A stretch of DNA of 53,216 nt from NCBI GenBank assembly GCA_018221205.1, contig JAAOYF010000028.1, positions 1-53,216 on the forward strand, in the 5' to 3' direction. Positions 6,788 to 44,882 of the stretch are shown one piece after another; the stretch's first letter is position 1; each line of letters opens with the position of its first letter. The notes below the pieces were generated by a model. The model made no database searches. It saw only the letters and a list, made by a program, of their open reading frames with translations, and was not told where the DNA came from. Both the position numbers and the translations under genes were made by a program. Origin of the DNA: Candidatus Woesearchaeota archaeon (lineage in GTDB: Archaea; Nanobdellota; Nanobdellia; Woesearchaeales; WJIZ01).

Positions 6788-7102
6788 TCACTTTCTTAAG
6801 GGAAATCTCATGAATTTCTTGCATTCAAGGCAGGAATAGGTCATTTTCCCTTGAGTTGTCCTGACTCTGAGATTCTTTCCAGGCATGAGAAATGAATAAC
6901 AGTGCTTGCAGAATCTTTTCTGCAGGCTGGGGGTGATCCTTATCTTGTATTTCATGGCGATCCTTCTCGCTAGATAGACATATCTGTCTGCCAATGCTTT
7001 CTCTTCATCGAAGATATCTTCGGCCTGCTGGATGAGCTTCTTGATCCGCTGCTTAGCTACATCCAATACTATCTTTGAACGGCGGTGGTATTTCTTTGGC
7101 AT
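6788..7102 (-). CDS. rnp4: Ribonuclease P protein component 4 (Rpp21/Rpr2 family)
   Basis: 104-residue subunit of archaeal RNase P, which matures tRNA 5' ends together with RNase P RNA; it pairs with Rnp1 (Rpp29). The N-terminal half is a basic two-helix region (A-x-x-R-I-K-K-L ... A-D-R-Y-V-Y-L-A-R-R-I-A) and the C-terminal half a zinc ribbon with C65-x2-C68 and C91-x2-C94. Length and motif order match the archaeal family. It shares a divergent promoter region with the coiled-coil gene at 7164. Confidence 0.85.
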   Translation of the reverse strand: MPKKYHRRSKIVLDVAKQRIKKLIQQAEDIFDEEKALADRYVYLARRIAMKYKIRITPSLQKRFCKHCYSFLMPGKNLRVRTTQGKMTYSCLECKKFMRFPLRK

Positions 7103-7121
7103 AGCAGCTGAATAAGGCCCT

Positions 7122-7143
7122 CAATTATAAAATTTTTTAAATG
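7122..7143. promoter_or_regulatory. Overlapping divergent TATA boxes (rnp4 and coiled-coil gene)
   Basis: The AT-rich segment TTATAAAATTTTTTAAAT serves both directions: its left part lies about 27 nt before the rnp4 ATG (minus) and its right part about 26 nt before the ATG at 7164 (plus). Both mRNAs would be leaderless, and the two pre-initiation complexes would compete. Confidence 0.5.
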
Positions 7144-7163
7144 GCAAAGGGAAAAAGGTCCCT

Positions 7164-8405
7164 ATGTTCGGTTTTTTGAAGAAATTATTCAAAAAAGAAG
7201 AGGAAATCATCGAGAAGATCAAAGCAGAAGAATTAGGAATATGGTTTGAACATAAGGCAGAGCAGATCGAAAGGAACTCTACGCAGCTTCTCGACACATT
7301 CCGCAAACAGCTGAGCAATAAGATGGTGCAGGTACGAGAGCTGCTCAAGAACCTCGAGAAAGCCAGCTTAAGGAATTCTAATATCACGATCAGAGAGAAG
7401 CAGTTCATGGAGGGCAACCGGAAATCATATGTCCAGCGCACCTTGCTCTATCTCAAAGAGATCGATGACATGCTCGAAGAAGAGCTTCATTTCTTTCTCT
7501 ATCATTATCCGCAGTATCTGGAAAATTTCTCGAAAAGCACCCAGCGATCATATCGAATCCTCCAGGAGTTCTTCTCGAACGAGACCAGAGAAATTGCACT
7601 GAAGATCAAGGAGCTGGACGATGTTGTCGGAGATATCCAAAAAGATGAAGAGATGCATAACTATAGCAAGATCGAAAAGATCAAGAAAGGGCTTGAAAAA
7701 GTAGTGCAGATGGTGCAGAAAGAAAAGGAGCTTGAGGAAGAGCTAAAAAAAGCAAAAAGGGAAGTGTCGACTATCGAGCAGGACAAGAAAACATTGGCTG
7801 ATACCAAGAAATCATTGGAAGAGTCCAAGGAATTCAAGGAATATACAAAGCTTGAACAGGACATCGGACACGCAGAAGAAAAAATCAAGAAACTCAAGCA
7901 GGATATCTATGACCTATTCTCACCCATAACACGGGCATTACGCAAGTATCAGAGGATTGCTCTGGAGCATGAGAAGAAAATTGAGCATTACTGCCAGGAT
8001 GCGTGGGATGCCCTGCTCAAAGATGAGGCTACAGATATCCTCCACATTGCCAAAGGACTCTCGACAAACATCAAGAACGGCAGCCTGGTGCTCAAGAACA
8101 AAGATAAAATTCTTGCATGCATCGATAAGATGGACAAGAAGTTCTTTTCAGACATGAAAAAGCAGCATGCCGATCATATCAAGAACAAGGAAGATATCCA
8201 TAAGAAACTCAAAGAGCATACCACTAAAAAAGAGTTCGATAAAGTGGCGAAAAAAATAGAGGACCGGAAGTCCAAGATATCGATGACGAAAGAGATGCTG
8301 GAACGATTGACTGAAGAGCTGAATTCAATAGACCTTGTCCATATGAGGGATGAACTGAAGAAAGATATTGAACATCTATTAAAAGTAAAGATAGAATTTA
8401 TGTAG
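7164..8405 (+). CDS. Long coiled-coil protein (413 residues), unknown
   Basis: Begins MFGFLKKLFKKEEE, an amphipathic basic helix that could touch membrane or DNA. Residues about 30-140 look like a compact helical domain, and two long highly charged coiled-coil stretches follow (about 165-245 and 325-413), with a helical segment of mixed character between them. There is no P-loop, so it is not itself an SMC ATPase. Similar coiled-coil proteins are widespread in archaea without known role. Its last 8 nt overlap the end of convergent pgk. Confidence 0.65.
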   Translation: MFGFLKKLFKKEEEIIEKIKAEELGIWFEHKAEQIERNSTQLLDTFRKQLSNKMVQVRELLKNLEKASLRNSNITIREKQFMEGNRKSYVQRTLLYLKEIDDMLEEELHFFLYHYPQYLENFSKSTQRSYRILQEFFSNETREIALKIKELDDVVGDIQKDEEMHNYSKIEKIKKGLEKVVQMVQKEKELEEELKKAKREVSTIEQDKKTLADTKKSLEESKEFKEYTKLEQDIGHAEEKIKKLKQDIYDLFSPITRALRKYQRIALEHEKKIEHYCQDAWDALLKDEATDILHIAKGLSTNIKNGSLVLKNKDKILACIDKMDKKFFSDMKKQHADHIKNKEDIHKKLKEHTTKKEFDKVAKKIEDRKSKISMTKEMLERLTEELNSIDLVHMRDELKKDIEHLLKVKIEFM

Positions 8406-38625: not shown

Positions 38626-39207
38626 CTAGAAATGTGCTCGGCCTATCTTGAGCGAGAGAATAAATTTCCTCGCAGTCTCGATCTGCTTGTCATGTGTGAA
38701 GTTTCTATCTTCGTCCATGACTTTTCCCATCCGTTTGCATATGTGGTGGAAGGGCTTTCCTGCATGTTGAACCCATTGCCTACCGATGAAAGAGACTGGG
38801 TCTGACAAAGGCTCAGGATTGACTTCTTCAGGATGCAATGGGGTTGCTACACCATATTCAAAAACTGCCATCAGCTTTGGAAGAGCTTCAATGAGGAAGC
38901 CTGCATTGTCTCTATAATGCGTAGGTAGAAATCTTGCCATTATATTCCTGACTTCATGCAATTGTGTGACAAGCATTTGACTGAATTGTCCTTTATGAAC
39001 CTGAAGCAAGCTGCCACTTACTTCATCATAGTGTTTATCGAAACTCTTATCGAATAATCTTGCCAATCTACCTTTCTCATCAATTCTCAGTTCAGCATGT
39101 ACAAGAAATATATGATTAAAGTCATCTTTCGCTGCTTCAAAATCTAATTTTTGAACTATCTTTCTAACTTTGGGTTCTTTTACTTTCTGCTCTGCTTCGA
39201 TGGCCAT
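38626..39207 (-). CDS. Hypothetical protein (193 residues)
   Basis: A soluble, histidine-rich helical protein with no membrane segment or known motif. Its ATG overlaps the cmk stop (TAATG), so it is the second gene of a cmk operon. An N-terminal lysine-rich tail (K-V-K-E-P-K-V-R-K-I-V-Q-K) could bind nucleic acid. I cannot assign a family. Confidence 0.6.
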   Translation of the reverse strand: MAIEAEQKVKEPKVRKIVQKLDFEAAKDDFNHIFLVHAELRIDEKGRLARLFDKSFDKHYDEVSGSLLQVHKGQFSQMLVTQLHEVRNIMARFLPTHYRDNAGFLIEALPKLMAVFEYGVATPLHPEEVNPEPLSDPVSFIGRQWVQHAGKPFHHICKRMGKVMDEDRNFTHDKQIETARKFILSLKIGRAHF

Positions 39208-39737
39208 TACTTTCTCACTTTCTTCACTATTTTCTCTATCGCTTGCTCTGGTGTTATGCTTGTTGTGTCGATGATGAGGTCGAAATCACTTTTTGTAGGA
39301 AAATCGATGCCGTAATATTCTTTATACCTGATATTCTCAGACCTCATCCTTTCTTTGACATATTTTTCTGCCTCTTTCTGGCTCTTGTATCTCTCTTCTG
39401 CCCTCCTATGGCCTATGATCCTCTTGGCAGCCTCTTTCAGATTGACATTCAAGAATATCTTATATGAATCCGGGATGAAATGAAACCCTAACCTGGAGTC
39501 GATGACAAAACCGTCATGCTCCTGTCCGAACTTCACTTGCTTTTCGTCTAATTCTTCATCGATGGTCGAGTCAACCTCAGCCCTCTTCGAGAGATCCATG
39601 ATGGTGAGATGTCTTTTCTTCGCGATCCCCCTCATAAAGTCGCCGATAGAAACAAATTCCAATCTCAGTTTTTTAGCGAGCATCTTGGAGACGGTGCTTT
39701 TGCCTGAACCCACAGCCCCCGATACCGTGATTTTCAT
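39207..39737 (-). CDS. cmk: Cytidylate kinase (archaeal Cmk)
   Basis: 176 residues. Phosphorylates CMP/dCMP. P-loop V-S-G-A-V-G-S-G-K-S-T at 5-15, the mononucleotide-site motif I-D-S-R-L-G-F near 79 and the C-terminal lid R-R-A-E-E-R-Y near 113. Shorter than bacterial Cmk, as usual for archaea. Its TATA box (CATTTATAAAG, 39769-39759) is 27 nt from the ATG and only a few bases from the transposon target duplication at 39773-39780. Confidence 0.9.
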   Translation of the reverse strand: MKITVSGAVGSGKSTVSKMLAKKLRLEFVSIGDFMRGIAKKRHLTIMDLSKRAEVDSTIDEELDEKQVKFGQEHDGFVIDSRLGFHFIPDSYKIFLNVNLKEAAKRIIGHRRAEERYKSQKEAEKYVKERMRSENIRYKEYYGIDFPTKSDFDLIIDTTSITPEQAIEKIVKKVRK

Positions 39738-39772
39738 AATTTTGCCAGAAGAAATATTCTTTATAAATGTTG

Positions 39773-39780
39773 TTAATTTT
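39773..39780. repeat. Target-site duplication, left copy (TTAATTTT)
   Basis: Identical to 43081-43088 on the other side of the element, in direct orientation and directly abutting the terminal inverted repeats. Eight base pairs is the duplication length typical of IS6-family transposition. Confidence 0.85.
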
Positions 39781-39808
39781 TGAGCTGTTAAGTTAGCGTC
39801 ATCTGAGG
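39781..39808 (+). repeat. Left terminal inverted repeat of the transposon
   Basis: Starts TGAGCTGTTAAGT. Pairs with the complement of the right end, TGGGCTGTTAAGT, then continues with A.CGTCA.CT and GG; 22 of 28 positions agree. Confidence 0.8.
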
Positions 39809-39818
39809 TATAAAAAAA

Positions 39819-40016
39819 TTAATCCATAAAATATTTTGAATATTTATTTTTTAGATGTGATAACTTTTCTTTATCAATCTGCTCTCCGAATTTCTTTATG
39901 ACAGTTAGATATGCATCTACTCTACCTAAATTACTTTCTGGTGCCGAATTATAATTTTCAATAACTGCTTCAAATTGTTCAACACAGTATTCAAAAATGT
40001 CTTTTGCATCTACCAT
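39819..40016 (-). CDS. Small helical protein (65 residues), partner of AbrB-like protein
   Basis: Reads MVDAKDIFEYCVEQFEAVIE and continues all-helical, with basic end K-L-S-H-L-K-N-K-Y-S-K-Y-F. It starts 9 nt after the AbrB gene with ribosome binding site GGAGGAA and ends 10 nt inside the left terminal repeat. No nuclease motif is visible. The arrangement of AbrB-type protein first and small protein second resembles toxin-antitoxin pairs, but a toxin identity is inference. Confidence 0.55.
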   Translation of the reverse strand: MVDAKDIFEYCVEQFEAVIENYNSAPESNLGRVDAYLTVIKKFGEQIDKEKLSHLKNKYSKYFMD

Positions 40017-40025
40017 TTATTCCTC

Positions 40026-40187
40026 CTAATCCCTCTCAATAATCAGCTTTCCTTTCTTAACTTCAGCTTCCAGTTCTTCCCCTTCCTTCCAGCCCAATTT
40101 CTCTATGGTGCTAGGCTTTACAACAATAACATACTTAGCATATTCCTTATCCCCTACTTTTCGAGAAAGCTGTTTTTGGAGCTTCAT
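40026..40187 (-). CDS. AbrB/SpoVT-like DNA-binding protein (53 residues), transposon-borne
   Basis: Reads MKLQKQLSRKVGDKEYAKYV, then V-V-K-P-S-T-I-E-K-L-G-W-K-E-G-E-E-L-E and I-I-E-R-D: the strand, L-x-W-K-x-G-x-x-L and closing strand of a swapped-hairpin AbrB domain. Probably a dimeric repressor. The promoter carries two GGTACC palindromes flanking its TATA box, and the transposase promoter carries the same, so this protein likely represses both. First gene of a bicistron with the 65-residue protein. Confidence 0.75.
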   Translation of the reverse strand: MKLQKQLSRKVGDKEYAKYVIVVKPSTIEKLGWKEGEELEAEVKKGKLIIERD

Positions 40188-40195
40188 AATGGGTA

Positions 40196-40232
40196 TAGGT
40201 ACCTACTAGTATAAATAATTTTCGGTACCGAA
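40196..40232. promoter_or_regulatory. AbrB-gene promoter with two GGTACC operators
   Basis: TAGGTACCTA (40196-40205) lies between TATA and start codon; TTCGGTACCGAA (40221-40232, perfect 12-bp palindrome) lies just upstream of the TATA (about 40208-40219). Centre-to-centre distance is 26 bp. The ATG at 40187 is about 26 nt from the TATA, so leaderless. Confidence 0.7.
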
Positions 40233-40321
40233 GGCTTTTACAAAGAGATAATTGAACTGTAGAGTAAAAGTCAGGAAAAGCTAAATTAATAAATAAATAT
40301 TTTTATTTTTAGAAAACATGT

Positions 40322-40480
40322 TTAATGTTTTGCTAATTCTTTAAATAATACTTCGTCTTCTTTAAACACTATTTCTTTAGCTACTTTAACCAATTCTAAT
40401 AACTTTTTATCGTTTTTAGAAATTTCATAAACTTCTTTTTCTGTAAGTTTATATGTATCCTTTTTTTCTTCATTTTTCAT
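40322..40480 (-). CDS. Small charged protein (52 residues) after the Doc-like gene
   Basis: Reads MKNEEKKDTYKLTEKEVYEI and continues as a charged helix (K-K-L-L-E-L-V-K-V-A-K-E-I-V-F). It overlaps the end of the Doc-like gene by 11 nt, so the two are translationally coupled. Candidate antitoxin by position and size, although classic phd-doc has the antitoxin first. No family recognised. Confidence 0.6.
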   Translation of the reverse strand: MKNEEKKDTYKLTEKEVYEISKNDKKLLELVKVAKEIVFKEDEVLFKELAKH

Positions 40481-41090
40481 TTTCATCATTTTCCAGAGTT
40501 ATAGTAACAAAAACACCATTTAAATAATTTGCTATATCTTTATCTTCAATCATAACACAATTCCTATCCAACCATTCTTTTATTTCTTGAAAAGTTACTT
40601 TACTTTCATATTTTGCGACCTCTAAAATAAAAGTAACTGCTTCATTAAATTGTATCCTCAAATGGCATTTATTGACTAACATAAAGATCTTTGCTATTGC
40701 ATAAGCCACTCTTTTATTACCATCTGTAAAGTAATGACGTTTAGCAAATTCATTCAAGGCAAAGGTTCCTATACTAGTGGGATTTCTTTGGTTCTTATAT
40801 TGATGGTTTATTAGTTTATAAGTTGAATTGTATATGCCTCCTCTATCCCTAATTCCATGTTCTCCACCACTTAATTCAATTATAGTGTCGTGAACCCTTA
40901 TAATCATCTCTTCCATTTTTAGTACAATGCCTTTGGATATTCTTTTTCTAGGTTTATTCCAATAAGGACTATGGCATTTTGGGTTTGGACAAGAATTGGG
41001 GTTTTGTTCTTTTCTTCTTTTCCAAGTATGGTAACATCTAAAACAAAATAGTATATTATCATTATTAACCATATGTGTATTGTTAACCAT
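40470..41090 (-). CDS. Zinc-ribbon/Doc (Fic-family) fusion protein
   Basis: 206 residues. An N-terminal zinc ribbon with C16-x2-C19 and C34-x4-C39 (C-F-R-C ... C-P-N-P-K-C) is followed by a Doc-type Fic domain with the motif H119-Y-F-T-D-G-N-K-R127. Doc proteins phosphorylate EF-Tu and act as toxins; the ribbon could bind the operon's own operators or RNA. The first ten residues are generated by the repeated operator TTAACCATATGTG, so the start may be the second ATG (41072). TATA at 41113-41122. It is followed by a coupled 52-residue gene. Confidence 0.82.
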   Translation of the reverse strand: MVNNTHMVNNDNILFCFRCYHTWKRRKEQNPNSCPNPKCHSPYWNKPRKRISKGIVLKMEEMIIRVHDTIIELSGGEHGIRDRGGIYNSTYKLINHQYKNQRNPTSIGTFALNEFAKRHYFTDGNKRVAYAIAKIFMLVNKCHLRIQFNEAVTFILEVAKYESKVTFQEIKEWLDRNCVMIEDKDIANYLNGVFVTITLENDENEK

Positions 41091-41166
41091 ATGTGGTTGG
41101 AAATAACCATATACATTTAAATCTTTCTATTGTATATTGTATGGTTATATCTAACCATACAATATA
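41065..41166. promoter_or_regulatory. Doc-gene operator array with 15-bp palindrome
   Basis: TTAACCATATGTG is repeated at 41065-41077 and 41083-41095, TAACCATAT again at 41104-41112, and a perfect palindrome TATATTGTATGGTTA-TATC-TAACCATACAATATA spans 41133-41166. The TATA for the Doc gene (41113-41122) sits between them. Strong signature of autoregulation of a toxin-antitoxin-like operon. Confidence 0.7.
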
Positions 41167-41191
41167 TTAGCTACCTATCCTTTATAAGTAT

Positions 41192-41263
41192 TTCGGTACC
41201 TAAAACTATACTTCTCAATAGATATGATTAGGTACCTAAGTATTTATATACGTTAGGTACCTA
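41192..41263 (+). promoter_or_regulatory. Transposase promoter with GGTACC operators
   Basis: TTCGGTACCTAA (41192-41203), TAGGTACCTA (41229-41238) and TAGGTACCTA (41254-41263). The last two flank the TATA box TATTTATATACG (41241-41252), 25 bp apart, as in the AbrB-gene promoter; the ATG at 41273 is about 27 nt from the TATA, so leaderless. Confidence 0.7.
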
Positions 41264-41272
41264 CTAATACAT

Positions 41273-42169
41273 ATGAAACAAACAACCAAATGTAAGCATT
41301 GTGGCGAAAGCCACTACATAAAAAAGGGATTTCGTAAAACAGAAAATCGTGGCAAAATTCAGAAATATAAGTGCTTAGATTGTGGAATGTATTTTACTAG
41401 TGATGAAGGCTTTTATAGAATGAGAAACTCTGAAAAGAAGATAACTCAAGCCATAGACCTTTACTTCTCTAATCTCTCAAGCAGAAAGGTAAGAAACTTC
41501 TTTAGAAGGCATTTAGACCACAATGCAAGCCATATAACAGTATTGGATTGGTGTAGAAGGTATGTTCTAAAGGTACAGAAGTATGTGAATAAACTACACC
41601 CAGAATTAAGTGGAGAGTTCTATGCAGATGAAACAGAGATACCAAGAGGATGTAACACTAAAAGAAAAGGTGGCGATAAATTCTGGTGTGCGGTTGATTG
41701 GGGAACAAGATACATCAACGCTACTCTTTATTCACCTAATAATCAGAGTGTAGACGAAGCGGTTGAATTTTTGAAGAAAACAACAAAACACAGAAAGCCA
41801 AAATTTATCCAAACAGATGCAGCACAATTTTATCCAAAAGCAATGAAGAAACTTTTTAGTTCTTGTATCCCTCATGAAACTACATTCGGAAAAAGAACGA
41901 CAGTAGAACATCGTATTAACAACGTCAGAAAGACAGGAAAACATAATGTAAGGATTGAAACCGTATTCTCGAAAATTAAGGACAGAGTTGATGATTTTCG
42001 AGGGTTGAAAGCGTTATGGAGTGCCCCTATCCTCATGGAAGGCATTATCATACAACACAACTGGATTGAAGCCCATACAACAACAGGAAGGATACCCTCA
42101 GAACTGGCAGGGATGAAGATTGATACAGGGGCTAATCGGTGGTTAGGGATGATTAAATCTTCCTTATAA
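41273..42169 (+). CDS. IS6/IS240-like DDE transposase
   Basis: 298 residues. N-terminal zinc ribbon (C7-x2-C10, C34-x2-C37), a helix-turn-helix region at about 55-100, and an RNase-H-like DDE domain with D119 (Y-A-D-E-T-E-I), D182 (I-Q-T-D-A-A-Q-F-Y) and E229 (R-I-E-T-V-F-S-K-I-K-D-R). The last D-E spacing is longer than in IS26. The terminal repeat start and the 8-bp target duplication fit IS6. The frame is intact, so the element may be active. Its end overlaps the 299-residue gene by 17 nt. Confidence 0.88.
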   Translation: MKQTTKCKHCGESHYIKKGFRKTENRGKIQKYKCLDCGMYFTSDEGFYRMRNSEKKITQAIDLYFSNLSSRKVRNFFRRHLDHNASHITVLDWCRRYVLKVQKYVNKLHPELSGEFYADETEIPRGCNTKRKGGDKFWCAVDWGTRYINATLYSPNNQSVDEAVEFLKKTTKHRKPKFIQTDAAQFYPKAMKKLFSSCIPHETTFGKRTTVEHRINNVRKTGKHNVRIETVFSKIKDRVDDFRGLKALWSAPILMEGIIIQHNWIEAHTTTGRIPSELAGMKIDTGANRWLGMIKSSL

Positions 42170-43052
42170 TTCTTAATTCCGTAAATTTTTTCTGTTTTTT
42201 CAGTTTTTCTAGCTCCTTTAAAATTATATCATTAATCTTTTTATTAAACTTTGAATTTTTTGAACTGACCTCTAACTTATCTTCTGCTATAGTAATCCAA
42301 TTAGCATAGGAATCTCCAAACATCCAAAAAAGGAAAGGAGAGTAGATTCTTATTTTACAAAAGTTACTATCATAGTCAAAAGAATCTTTAATTTTTAACT
42401 TCTTGTTCCCGAAAAAGCCCTTCTTGCTAAAAGACTTTCTAAAAATTGCTAAAAGGTCCCTATTTTTAGCTAATTTAAACCTATAAGTGTAGATATTTTT
42501 TAACAAATCTTTATTATAATGGAAATGAAGAGCTACGGAAATTGTAATTAGAATAAGCCCAACAAGCGCCATTGAATAAAGTATAATGTTATTTGAAAGT
42601 AGGTTAATTGCTTGAATTTCATATGGAAGTCTTTCTGTTAGTGTGAGTGCTGAAAAATTTACTTCATTCCTATTTAGAACAGTTGTATAAGCTTGTGTTT
42701 CACTAATCTTCAACAGAAATTGTAATCCTGCTTCAACCATAAGGGAAATCCCAATACCTAAAAGAATTCCTGTGAAGAAAGTATTAATTTTTCTCTTTTT
42801 TTGCTGTTCATCAGGAAGCGTTAAATGAATATCAGTAACCTTATTTTTAATATCATCCAAATCCTTCTTAATTTCGTTTGTGTTAGTTGCCACGAATATC
42901 CTCAATATGTTCACTAGACATACTAAGGTATTATACCCCCCTATTTTAATAATTATCTCATTTACATATATAAATCCAGCGAGTATAGCAAAAAAAGACC
43001 ATATCAATAAAAAAGGCAACAAGAAGTAAGTTATAACAACCCAGTTCTCCAT
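42153..43052 (-). CDS. Membrane protein passenger (299 residues), unknown
   Basis: Hydrophobic helices at about 5-30, 35-55, 88-112 and 150-175, a short charged linker with coiled-coil character (K-K-D-L-D-D-I-K-N-K-V), and a soluble C-terminal half of about 120 residues rich in Lys and Phe. No family recognised. The ATG lies exactly 1 nt inside the right terminal repeat, so its promoter must lie partly in the repeat or flank. AT-rich codons like the rest of the element. Confidence 0.6.
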   Translation of the reverse strand: MENWVVITYFLLPFLLIWSFFAILAGFIYVNEIIIKIGGYNTLVCLVNILRIFVATNTNEIKKDLDDIKNKVTDIHLTLPDEQQKKRKINTFFTGILLGIGISLMVEAGLQFLLKISETQAYTTVLNRNEVNFSALTLTERLPYEIQAINLLSNNIILYSMALVGLILITISVALHFHYNKDLLKNIYTYRFKLAKNRDLLAIFRKSFSKKGFFGNKKLKIKDSFDYDSNFCKIRIYSPFLFWMFGDSYANWITIAEDKLEVSSKNSKFNKKINDIILKELEKLKKQKKFTELRIIRKI

Positions 43053-43080
43053 CCGTAGGTGACGTTTACTTAACAGCCCA
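43053..43080 (-). repeat. Right terminal inverted repeat of the transposon
   Basis: Read on the minus strand: TGGGCTGTTAAGTAAACGTC, then ACCTACGG. Pairs with the left end at 22 of 28 positions. Confidence 0.8.
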
Positions 43081-43088
43081 TTAATTTT
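43081..43088. repeat. Target-site duplication, right copy (TTAATTTT)
   Basis: Direct repeat of 39773-39780. It contains the TAA stop (as TTA on this strand) of the gene at 43081-43863, which therefore kept its own stop codon after insertion. Confidence 0.85.
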
Positions 43089-43863
43089 TCAGACCAGGAT
43101 TTCCGCAGATCCTGATGGCAGTGACGAAGAGAATCAAGTAGAGCGTGATCGCGATCCAGGAGAAATAAACTCCCACCAGGGGTGATTGGACAATAAGATA
43201 GCTCTTGAAGTCAAACGGAATAGTAAGAACCTCGATGAGGATCATGATGGTCGCAGTATGGAACGAAAGAGAGAGCACTTGGGGGAGAGTCACGATGTTC
43301 TTCATCGGCTTGGCGAAGGCATAGAAGAGAAATGCCAGGGGATAGATGATCAGGACGTATTTGACCATATAGGTGAAGAAGAGGAAGACAAAAACACTGG
43401 GCAAGAGGAGCGTGAAGATCAGGATAGTAATTCTTTTTGAGCTTTCCCTGTCAGCGGTGAAATCATATTCACCGAGATCAATGGTCCCTTCCTGGAACCC
43501 TATATCATAGAACAGCCTTTCGTTCGTCAGGAGGAGCACTTCTGTGTCGATCTGTTTGGTATCGGTCGTGTCCAACGTTATAATAGGATTAGTATTGGGC
43601 AGGGAGACGGGCTGGGCAGTCTCGAAATCTGCCTTGATCTTCAGTTCTGCGATGTTCAAGAGAGCCTGATCGAGCTCAGTCTTTATCAGCAGCATCTTCG
43701 GAGCAGCGATGACCAGCATGAGCAGTAATGCGCTAAAGAGCACTGCGAGGAAATATGTTATTGCACTGGAGACTCTCCTCTCCCCTATATAGATATAATA
43801 CCTCGGATGCAGACTCTTCAGGATAAGAAAGATAAAATGCTTCAGCTTTGATCTAACGCCCAT
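43081..43863 (-). CDS. Multi-pass membrane protein, DUF1189-like
   Basis: 260 residues. A first membrane helix at about 35-54, an external segment of about 90 residues, then four more hydrophobic helices between about 145 and 250. The domain layout (one helix, soluble loop, four-helix bundle) resembles the DUF1189 family, but I offer that tentatively. It overlaps the upstream lipoprotein gene by 22 nt, so co-translation is likely. The transposon has inserted precisely at its stop codon. Confidence 0.6.
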   Translation of the reverse strand: MGVRSKLKHFIFLILKSLHPRYYIYIGERRVSSAITYFLAVLFSALLLMLVIAAPKMLLIKTELDQALLNIAELKIKADFETAQPVSLPNTNPIITLDTTDTKQIDTEVLLLTNERLFYDIGFQEGTIDLGEYDFTADRESSKRITILIFTLLLPSVFVFLFFTYMVKYVLIIYPLAFLFYAFAKPMKNIVTLPQVLSLSFHTATIMILIEVLTIPFDFKSYLIVQSPLVGVYFSWIAITLYLILFVTAIRICGNPGLKN

Positions 43864-44882
43864 GTATCTATGACCTCTTTTTCTAATGCTATGATATCAT
43901 TTACCTTGTTTATATTTCTTTCGTCTATCATCTCCTTGAAGAGGACAGAGCTCTGGCGGAATTTTCCTGCCTGCTCCTTATCGTCCAGCCAGTCTGCCAG
44001 CGCTTTCCGGGTGATGAAGCCCTGTTTCAGCTGCTGCTCTGATAGCTCCCTTTTCAATACATTATGGCTGAGGAGGATATCTTTCCTTATGGTGACTTTT
44101 GCCTCTTCCTCGTCTATGGGATCACTTTCCCTCAAGACATACCAGGTGAACAGAGGGCCATAGTCATTCACCTCACTCAGCCATCCGTCGTAGAAATCCT
44201 GGGGAGTGATATCAAGATAAGAAGCGCCGGCCAAGGTGGGGTTGTTGATCTTGATATTCTGATCGTAGCCTACAACCGGAACGAAGATAGGGTCATGGAA
44301 CTTCTCTTTCTCCTGCTGGTATCTCCGCAGCAGTTCGTGATGGAGGTAAAAACGGTCGACTGCGACTATAGGCACTGCATTGGATGAGGTTATCAGCTGG
44401 AGATAGACGATGCTGCCCTGGCCTTTTATGGGGGTGGCTTTGAGATCGTATTTTGCATAGAACTGCCTCAGCTTGCTATTCAGCTCTGCACTTGCGTAGA
44501 ATGCCTTGAATCCATAAAGGGACAGGCGGCTGCCCAAGAATTCTTCCAGGGAGGCACCTTTATCATCCAGCTTAGCAGCCCCGGACAATGCGACGATAAA
44601 AGAATAGGGAAGATCAGGATTGAATCTCCTCATAGATACTGCAGTGGCAGCCACGAAATCAATGCACCCATTACATCCATCATAGATGTTCTCTACAGCC
44701 TTCACGGTATGGCTTGCTGGTGTCTCGGTCCTCAGCTTGAATTCAGGAAGATCTGTTGTCTCTTTTTCCTCAAATGTTCCGGCTGTGGAATTGAAGTCTT
44801 TTACACTCAACTGTACGGCTTGCGGAGTCTCATAGATGCAGCCAGCGAGAATGATAAGTGCAAGTAAAAAGAGAGTTTTCAT
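43842..44882 (-). CDS. Lipoprotein with a possible papain-like (C39) domain
   Basis: 346 residues from the ATG at 44882. MKTLFLLALIILAGC is a lipoprotein signal with lipobox L-A-G-C, so the protein is anchored outside. The domain from about residue 65 has Y-D-G-C-N-G-C-I-D-F-V-A-A-T-A-V and later V-P-V-V-G-Y-D-Q-N, reminiscent of C39-type peptidases (Cys start, G-Y-D turn), but the usual catalytic His is not obvious, so a non-peptidase role is possible. A TATA-like CATTTAATAATC lies about 26 nt upstream. Operon with the DUF1189-like gene. Confidence 0.65.
   Translation of the reverse strand: MKTLFLLALIILAGCIYETPQAVQLSVKDFNSTAGTFEEKETTDLPEFKLRTETPASHTVKAVENIYDGCNGCIDFVAATAVSMRRFNPDLPYSFIVALSGAAKLDDKGASLEEFLGSRLSLYGFKAFYASAELNSKLRQFYAKYDLKATPIKGQGSIVYLQLITSSNAVPIVAVDRFYLHHELLRRYQQEKEKFHDPIFVPVVGYDQNIKINNPTLAGASYLDITPQDFYDGWLSEVNDYGPLFTWYVLRESDPIDEEEAKVTIRKDILLSHNVLKRELSEQQLKQGFITRKALADWLDDKEQAGKFRQSSVLFKEMIDERNINKVNDIIALEKEVIDTWALDQS

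Follow-up and report, generated by a model that had tools for sequence, protein, structure and literature searches.

The 53,216-nt stretch of DNA analysed in this study (the window) contains a 3300-bp unit at positions 39781-43080. Two terminal inverted repeats (TIRs), each adjoining an exact 8-bp target-site duplication (TSD), TTAATTTT, enclose an IS6-like transposase gene, a gene for an AbrB/MazE-fold regulator and several further open reading frames (Table 1). An Rfam search over 39000-44000 gave no match.

Table 1. Features of the unit in window coordinates
Feature	Position	Strand	Basis
Left TSD, TTAATTTT	39773..39780	.	Sequence; same as 43081-43088
Left TIR, TGAGCTGTTAAGTTAGCGTCATCTGAGG	39781..39808	+	22/28 against right end; motif common to ~30 elements
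65-aa ORF downstream of AbrB, variable cargo	39819..40016	-	No family match; unrelated small ORFs there in other elements
AbrB/MazE-fold regulator, 53 aa, conserved core gene	40026..40187	-	Pfam, AF2, Foldseek
Operator box 1, TATAGGTACCTACT, AbrB promoter	40194..40207	.	Box search
Operator box 2, TTTCGGTACCGAAG, AbrB promoter	40220..40233	.	Box search
55-aa ORF, candidate antitoxin, overlaps Doc	40322..40489	-	Role inferred from position
Zinc ribbon + Doc/Fic protein, 206 aa, motif HYFTDGNKR	40470..41090	-	Pfam Fic, NCBIfam DOC_P1
Perfect palindrome, 15-nt arms, upstream of Doc; candidate Doc-module operator	41133..41166	.	Inverted-repeat listing (I17)
Operator box, TTTCGGTACCTAAA, upstream of transposase	41191..41204	.	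Box search
Operator box, ATTAGGTACCTAAG, upstream of transposase	41227..41240	.	Box search
Operator box, GTTAGGTACCTACT, upstream of transposase	41252..41265	.	Box search
IS6-like DDE transposase, 298 aa, N-terminal zinc ribbon	41273..42169	+	DDE_Tnp_IS240 profile, signature
Membrane protein, 299 aa, cargo	42153..43052	-	One clear homolog
Right TIR, TGGGCTGTTAAGTAAACGTCACCTACGG (read inward)	43053..43080	-	Sequence; pairs with left TIR
Right TSD, TTAATTTT	43081..43088	.	Contains stop codon of 43081-43863 gene

Ends and empty sites

The ends and TSD of the unit exceed chance: its TIRs, which agree at 22 of 28 positions, form the best pair with an exact TSD in the window (the runner-up scores 18), and none of 60 Markov shuffles attained this score, the maximum being 18. 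A sequence-only reading had proposed an IS6-like unit that has intact ends and carries passengers; its 28-bp imperfect repeats, perfect 8-bp duplication, intact DDE transposase and five extra genes were all recovered here, and the five passengers are real ORFs. It had also named two outcomes that would speak against it: relatives without the transposase that keep the passengers in the same place, and the lack of any other element with these ends. Neither occurred. An empty site joining the 43081-43863 gene to cmk was found in all six family members searched, with the 260-aa gene 25-162 bp from cmk and the passengers missing from the orthologous site, and many other elements share the ends (see below). 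The unit is present as a single copy in its own genome, so that recent movement is not directly indicated.

Transposase

The transposase ORF is intact and scores 45.2 bits with DDE_Tnp_IS240 (PF13610; Pfam cutoff 27). D119, D182 and E229 are its candidate catalytic residues, and it carries E--F---K-R, the signature of archaeal IS6 (PMC6807381). The enzyme is thus a DDE transposase of the IS6/IS240 type, with a score of 68.8 bits, below the cutoff of 125, for the NCBIfam IS6 equivalog NF033587. The TIRs of the clade have TG tips, not the GG tips of the bacterial core group, which were seen only in L129; GG tips are also missing from many archaeal IS6 members (PMC6807381). Searches of the transposase against plasmid records and viral contigs found no relatives, and a profile comparison with solved structures gave no match.

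Related units

At least 30 related units with such ends were found in DPANN archaea, many of them in fragmented metagenome assemblies. The end motif occurs in 57 of 371 genomes of the phylum, and a reversed control in one. An exact 8-bp TSD, as in IS6, borders 28 of the 30 delimited units, most of which were first selected by demanding a TSD; some (L111, L113 and the split unit of G001, with CTAAAAGG on both sides) were delimited by the end motif alone. The TSDs prefer C-T-WWWW-A-G. A second unit in G040 is 3899 bp long, with TIRs that agree at 24 of 24 positions and the TSD TCTTTTTG. Several units lack a full transposase, and transposase-less units with TIR and TSD were found. A contig scan by two short peptide patterns gave 11 hits, all in DPANN, and further members may exist elsewhere. 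No TIR/TSD pair was recognised for the IS6 transposases of these genomes with ~33% identity (L119-L128, L030), for which no unit is claimed; the still more distant L129 transposase has such a pair.

Regulator and operators

The window AbrB scores 21.7 bits in Pfam, and its AF2 model (pLDDT 91) finds MazE/AbrB/SpoVT-type proteins as best Foldseek matches (best E 0.06, prob 0.99). Fold and family similarity mark it as an AbrB/MazE-fold DNA-binding protein, although the Pfam score is below the cutoff of 24.7. The gene is the conserved partner in 19 of 24 units, usually divergent from the transposase; the other five lack this AbrB. AbrB recurs so widely, beside small genes that have no relation to one another, that it seems to belong to the element as its regulator.

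The divergent promoter region between AbrB and the transposase carries palindromes of TTTAGGTACCTAAA type, of which 59 were found in the AbrB-transposase gaps against 0.8 expected. They show recurrent spacings of 25-28 and 36 bp and often bracket a TATA-like sequence. In the window unit, boxes 1 and 2 of the AbrB promoter enclose such a sequence, and TATTTATATA lies at ~41241-41250 between the second and third transposase-side boxes. Where cargo separates AbrB from the transposase (window, L055, L119), boxes are found at both promoters. Three of the five WNMGGTACCKNW sites in the 1.28-Mb genome are inside the window element. Valine at AbrB residue 20 goes with GGTACC (9/9) and tryptophan with GATACC or GGTATC (8/8). 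The regulator type changes seven times on the transposase tree, and the four supported independent pairs are all concordant for AbrB and operator type (sign test p=0.125, with four pairs only). This location and covariation suggest that AbrB binds the palindromes, in keeping with the self-regulation that had been proposed from the sequence. AbrB could also act mainly on itself.

Cargo

The Doc/Fic protein scores above cutoff with both Pfam Fic (31.1 bits) and NCBIfam DOC_P1 (50.5 bits; cutoff 38.65), and its Doc domain and catalytic-type motif are those of a Doc/Fic type II toxin. The 55-aa ORF, or 52 aa if counted from an internal Met, matched no antitoxin family in Pfam or NCBIfam. The 299-aa membrane protein gave no match in Pfam or PADLOC and a predicted structure with pLDDT 59; its one clear homolog among the 371 genomes lies inside an abutting member of the family. 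The unit has the layout of a tIS, with passenger genes between one pair of TIRs. Cargo differs in nearly every unit and includes Doc/Fic, ParE-like TA, four type II R-M systems, LD-carboxypeptidase, a serpin, a nucleotide-sanitation cluster and membrane proteins; the passengers do not form a fixed set. Of the one or two maintenance modules once envisaged, one is plausible, namely the 55-aa ORF and Doc with their own palindrome; the pairing of AbrB with the 65-residue protein found no support, given that AbrB recurs and its small neighbour is always different.

Discussion

The window feature is probably (about 0.8) a complete, self-repressed unit transposon with cargo, from an IS6-like family found in DPANN archaea, its repression and mobility being read from sequence. 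An AbrB dimer would bind the palindromes at both promoters, that of AbrB and that of the transposase, and occlude the TATA boxes, repressing both genes and holding transposition low. The transposase would act at the TIRs that enclose the full unit, and also in trans on transposase-less units, perhaps forming cointegrates like other IS6 elements; anything between two ends would therefore move as cargo. In the window copy, the Doc pair may serve as a type II toxin-antitoxin module that makes loss of the element costly, if Doc is active as a toxin.

A plain IS6 element beside unrelated chromosomal genes, with a coincidental far TIR and TSD, would suit the archaeal IS6 elements in ISfinder, which mostly have 700-780 bp and a transposase only (PMC6807381), but it is hardly credible in view of the shuffles, the passenger-free orthologous site in six relatives and the ~30 units in which such ends enclose cargo; it is refuted by the empty sites together with the sister units. 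Cargo might have been acquired by accident, as TIR-bounded DNA caught at random whose genes are useless to the element. This fits the present reading apart from a maintenance role for Doc, and the high diversity of cargo, including serpin, nucleotide enzymes and decayed units, speaks for it; against it, genes of toxin type and whole type II R-M systems turn up repeatedly (window, L026, L055, L119, L108, L111, L112, L157, as a raw tally), which leaves it doubtful but worth keeping in mind.

Two other alternatives concern AbrB. It might activate or antirepress the promoters rather than repress them, as the boxes flank TATA-like sequences and do not always cover them. Their position on both sides of these sequences and near start codons makes this unlikely, since boxes astride the TATA and near start codons are the usual occlusion layout in archaea. 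That AbrB and the 65-residue protein form MazEF-like TA cargo, and not a transposase regulator, is quite improbable: AbrB has the MazE antitoxin fold, a small same-strand ORF follows it, and one transposon of the Tn3 family is reported to carry a PIN toxin and an AbrB/MazE antitoxin (PMC7157771), but the adjoining ORF is unrelated between elements, operator boxes also occur at the transposase promoter, and AbrB and operator types covary.

Beyond the window, the family may well represent a class of cargo-shuttling IS6-like units that is widespread in archaea, in which the AbrB gene and operator array can be exchanged as a control cassette. The two would switch type together among transposase lineages, giving repression groups, and addiction, restriction and metabolic genes could be mobilised, also in trans within units that have no transposase. 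Given the small genomes of DPANN archaea and their dependence on hosts, how they gain genes is an open question, and the family offers a concrete path along which toxins, restriction systems and metabolic genes may spread among them. It also supplies a regulator-operator pair that can be tested and whose specificity varies naturally. The open-licence literature yielded no earlier description of DPANN IS6 units with AbrB and passengers, and the family is apparently undescribed. According to a 2019 survey of archaeal integrated elements, transposons with diverse passengers had not yet been seen in archaea (PMC6563490); such elements were found here across DPANN archaea.

Among known systems, C56 of pSSVi and C68 of pSSVx are AbrB-fold structural matches to the predicted AbrB model, with weak E-values, but they come from virus-plasmid satellites and have no tie to a transposase. 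Tn3-family transposons also hold TA pairs of several unrelated kinds within the transposition module, with one AbrB/MazE antitoxin case, but use another transposase and their own resolvase and res site; the available part of the Tn3 report describes no AbrB/operator module over the transposase (PMC7157771). ISDsp3 of Dehalococcoides, the sole IS6-assigned element with a passenger (PMC7986276), is a bacterial tIS of 1456 bp with a single hypothetical passenger and no regulator described. In IS26 pseudo-compound transposons and translocatable units, cargo is likewise moved by an IS6 transposase, but these consist of two directly repeated IS copies, or of a single IS with the cargo outside it, whereas the cargo here lies inside one TIR pair. 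The archaeal IS6 clades share DDE_Tnp_IS240, E--F---K-R, the 8-bp TSD and a related TIR with a CTGTT core (PMC7986276, PMC6807381); known members are mostly 696-778 bp (PMC6807381), whereas the units found here are ~2-4.9 kb with AbrB and cargo, TG rather than GG tips, and a 298-aa transposase with an N-terminal zinc ribbon.

Results

The sequence-only reading had proposed a passenger-bearing transposon with intact ends, and this unit was confirmed: its terminal inverted repeats (TIRs) match at 22/28 positions, TTAATTTT stands on both sides as a target-site duplication (TSD), and an intact transposase is accompanied by five further ORFs. In a search of pairs 0.7-6 kb apart, this was the window's best combination of TIRs and exact TSD; the runner-up scored 18, a value never exceeded in 60 shuffles of the window. 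The adjacent 260-aa gene has its stop codon inside the right TSD and so remained intact after the insertion. An empty site, for which that reading had suggested a search, was found: the 260-aa gene directly adjoins cmk (25-162 bp apart) in 6/6 family members searched. The element is present as one copy in its own genome.

The window transposase was matched in 10/60 relatives and at 11 loci among GTDB genomes, all of DPANN lineages; at all distances, matches occurred in 117/371 genomes of the phylum. Other elements with such ends, likewise suggested as a check, were recovered. A scan of the retrieved loci gave about 24 transposase-bearing units, and the end motif was found in 57/371 genomes versus 1 with the reversed pattern, also yielding units without a full transposase. 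In genome G040, a transposase 66% identical to the window's lies within a 3899-bp unit (TIRs 24/24, TSD TCTTTTTG), and in genome G001 one unit is split across two contigs with CTAAAAGG at both sides. An exact 8-bp TSD was present in 28 of 30 catalogued units (exceptions: L062, 5 mismatches; L199, 1 mismatch), although a TSD was required in the first choice of many; the end motif alone gave the window and G040 pairs, L111, L113 and the split G001 unit. The target preference was C-T-W-W-W-W-A-G. Transposase-bearing units measure 2.0-4.9 kb, except the decayed L133 (1.4 kb), and transposase-less units 0.5-3.7 kb.

Cargo, mostly assigned by Pfam/PADLOC, and coordinates of the units (L handles, related loci) and other features
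Feature	Coordinates	Cargo	Remarks
Window unit	39781-43080	Doc
260-aa gene	43081-43863		neighbour of the window unit
L026		Fic
L055	5164-5803 (toxin-antitoxin pair)	ParE-like toxin	slightly below its Pfam cutoff
L119	~6890-7600 (toxin-antitoxin pair)	ParE-like
L108, L111		MvaI/BcnI-type R-M
L112		HinP1I-type R-M
L157		another type II R-M	no transposase; 2 TSD mismatches
L057		VRR nuclease
L103		LD-carboxypeptidase
L104		TrmB regulator
L195	1048-4767	methylpurine-DNA glycosylase, thymidylate (TMP) kinase, deaminase, Ham1-type pyrophosphatase (nucleotide-sanitation cluster)	transposase-less; TIRs and TSD
L196		PNP, HAD	transposase-less or remnant
L197		radical SAM, Lrp-type regulator	transposase-less or remnant
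L199	1012-2820	full-length serpin (Pfam 409 bits)	archaeal genome; transposase remnant only
L198	1086-1570	one 84-aa membrane-type ORF	MITE-like, 485 bp; exact TSD
L129	3699-6921	secreted or surface-type proteins	distant IS6-like unit; GG tips, TIRs 23/24, exact TSD
L059	5280-7322		without the common AbrB
L030, L016	G000:C28:71031-71915		second IS6-type transposase of the window's genome

The closest transposase relatives, in G001 (fragments 85-89% identical), carry cargo unrelated to the window's. The window membrane protein has one clear homolog (49%) in 371 genomes, in a unit abutting L059 that reaches the same TSD with its right end. Because the GG-tip unit L129 also carries passengers, cargo may extend beyond the TG-tip clade. 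The similar-looking toxin-antitoxin pairs of L055 and L119 both lie between AbrB and transposase; the transposases are only ~33% identical. The second transposase of the window's genome (33% identical) is divergent from a 51-aa zinc-ribbon ORF similar to the N-terminal part of Doc in the window, and comparable stretches lie close to transposases in L112, L120, L121 and L126; among all these zinc-ribbon loci, TIRs were recognised in L112 only.

The sole recurrent companion of the transposase is AbrB (19/24 transposase-bearing units), mostly divergent from it and, in one subclade, upstream in tandem. The AbrB-transposase gaps of 18 divergent loci contain 59 TTTHGRTAYCDAAA-type palindromes versus 0.8 expected from shuffles; the other 48 kb of these loci contain 12. 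Spacings of 25-28 bp and 36 bp recur, and most 25-28 bp spacers contain TATA-like sequence, as DNA this AT-rich often would by chance. Where a toxin module separates the two genes (window, L055, L119), such boxes stand at both promoters. Three of the five WNMGGTACCKNW sites of the window's genome fall within the element. Among 30 retrieved loci with AbrB homologs in the phylum, 20 have a transposase or TIR alongside and 20 have boxes upstream. L059 lacks this AbrB and has, in the same position, a different small gene (an 84-aa ORF) and CAGTACTG-type palindromes, which suggests that its regulator was acquired independently.

Box type follows AbrB residue 20: V with GGTACC (9/9), W with GATACC/GGTATC (GRTAYC type; 8/8); a third group, arranged in tandem, has boxes of other types. 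Regulator type switches at least 7 times on the transposase tree, and the independent supported pairs are concordant (4/4), too few for significance alone. The L063 transposase clusters with GRTAYC-type elements, yet its AbrB and boxes are both of GGTACC type, which clearly illustrates a joint swap of regulator and boxes.

Discussion

The structure of the unit, its insertion, the existence of sister units, a conserved regulator, arrays resembling operators and the covariation were all observed; on this basis a mechanism may be proposed. AbrB would cover the TATA region and repress both its own gene and the transposase; the transposase would mobilise, in cis or in trans, any DNA bounded by two such ends; and the Doc pair may stabilise the element. 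The single-contig 829-kb genome G115 (contig 1) has at least 3 of these units with different cargo, and is well suited to studies of copy number and polymorphism.

DNA transposons with passengers have been stated to be undetected in archaea (PMC6563490), and no earlier description of such elements was found in the open-licence literature searched. Toxin-antitoxin modules are carried by Tn3 elements (PMC7157771), to which the present units compare by analogy only. A review of the IS6 family records a single passenger-bearing member, ISDsp3 (PMC7986276); the archaeal members listed are mostly 696-778 bp, and have been argued to lie possibly outside the family (PMC6807381). The present clade shares with IS6 the IS240 domain, the E--F---K-R signature and the 8-bp TSD. 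Because it nevertheless falls below the NCBIfam equivalog cutoff and lacks GG tips, it is here termed IS6-like rather than a member of IS6.
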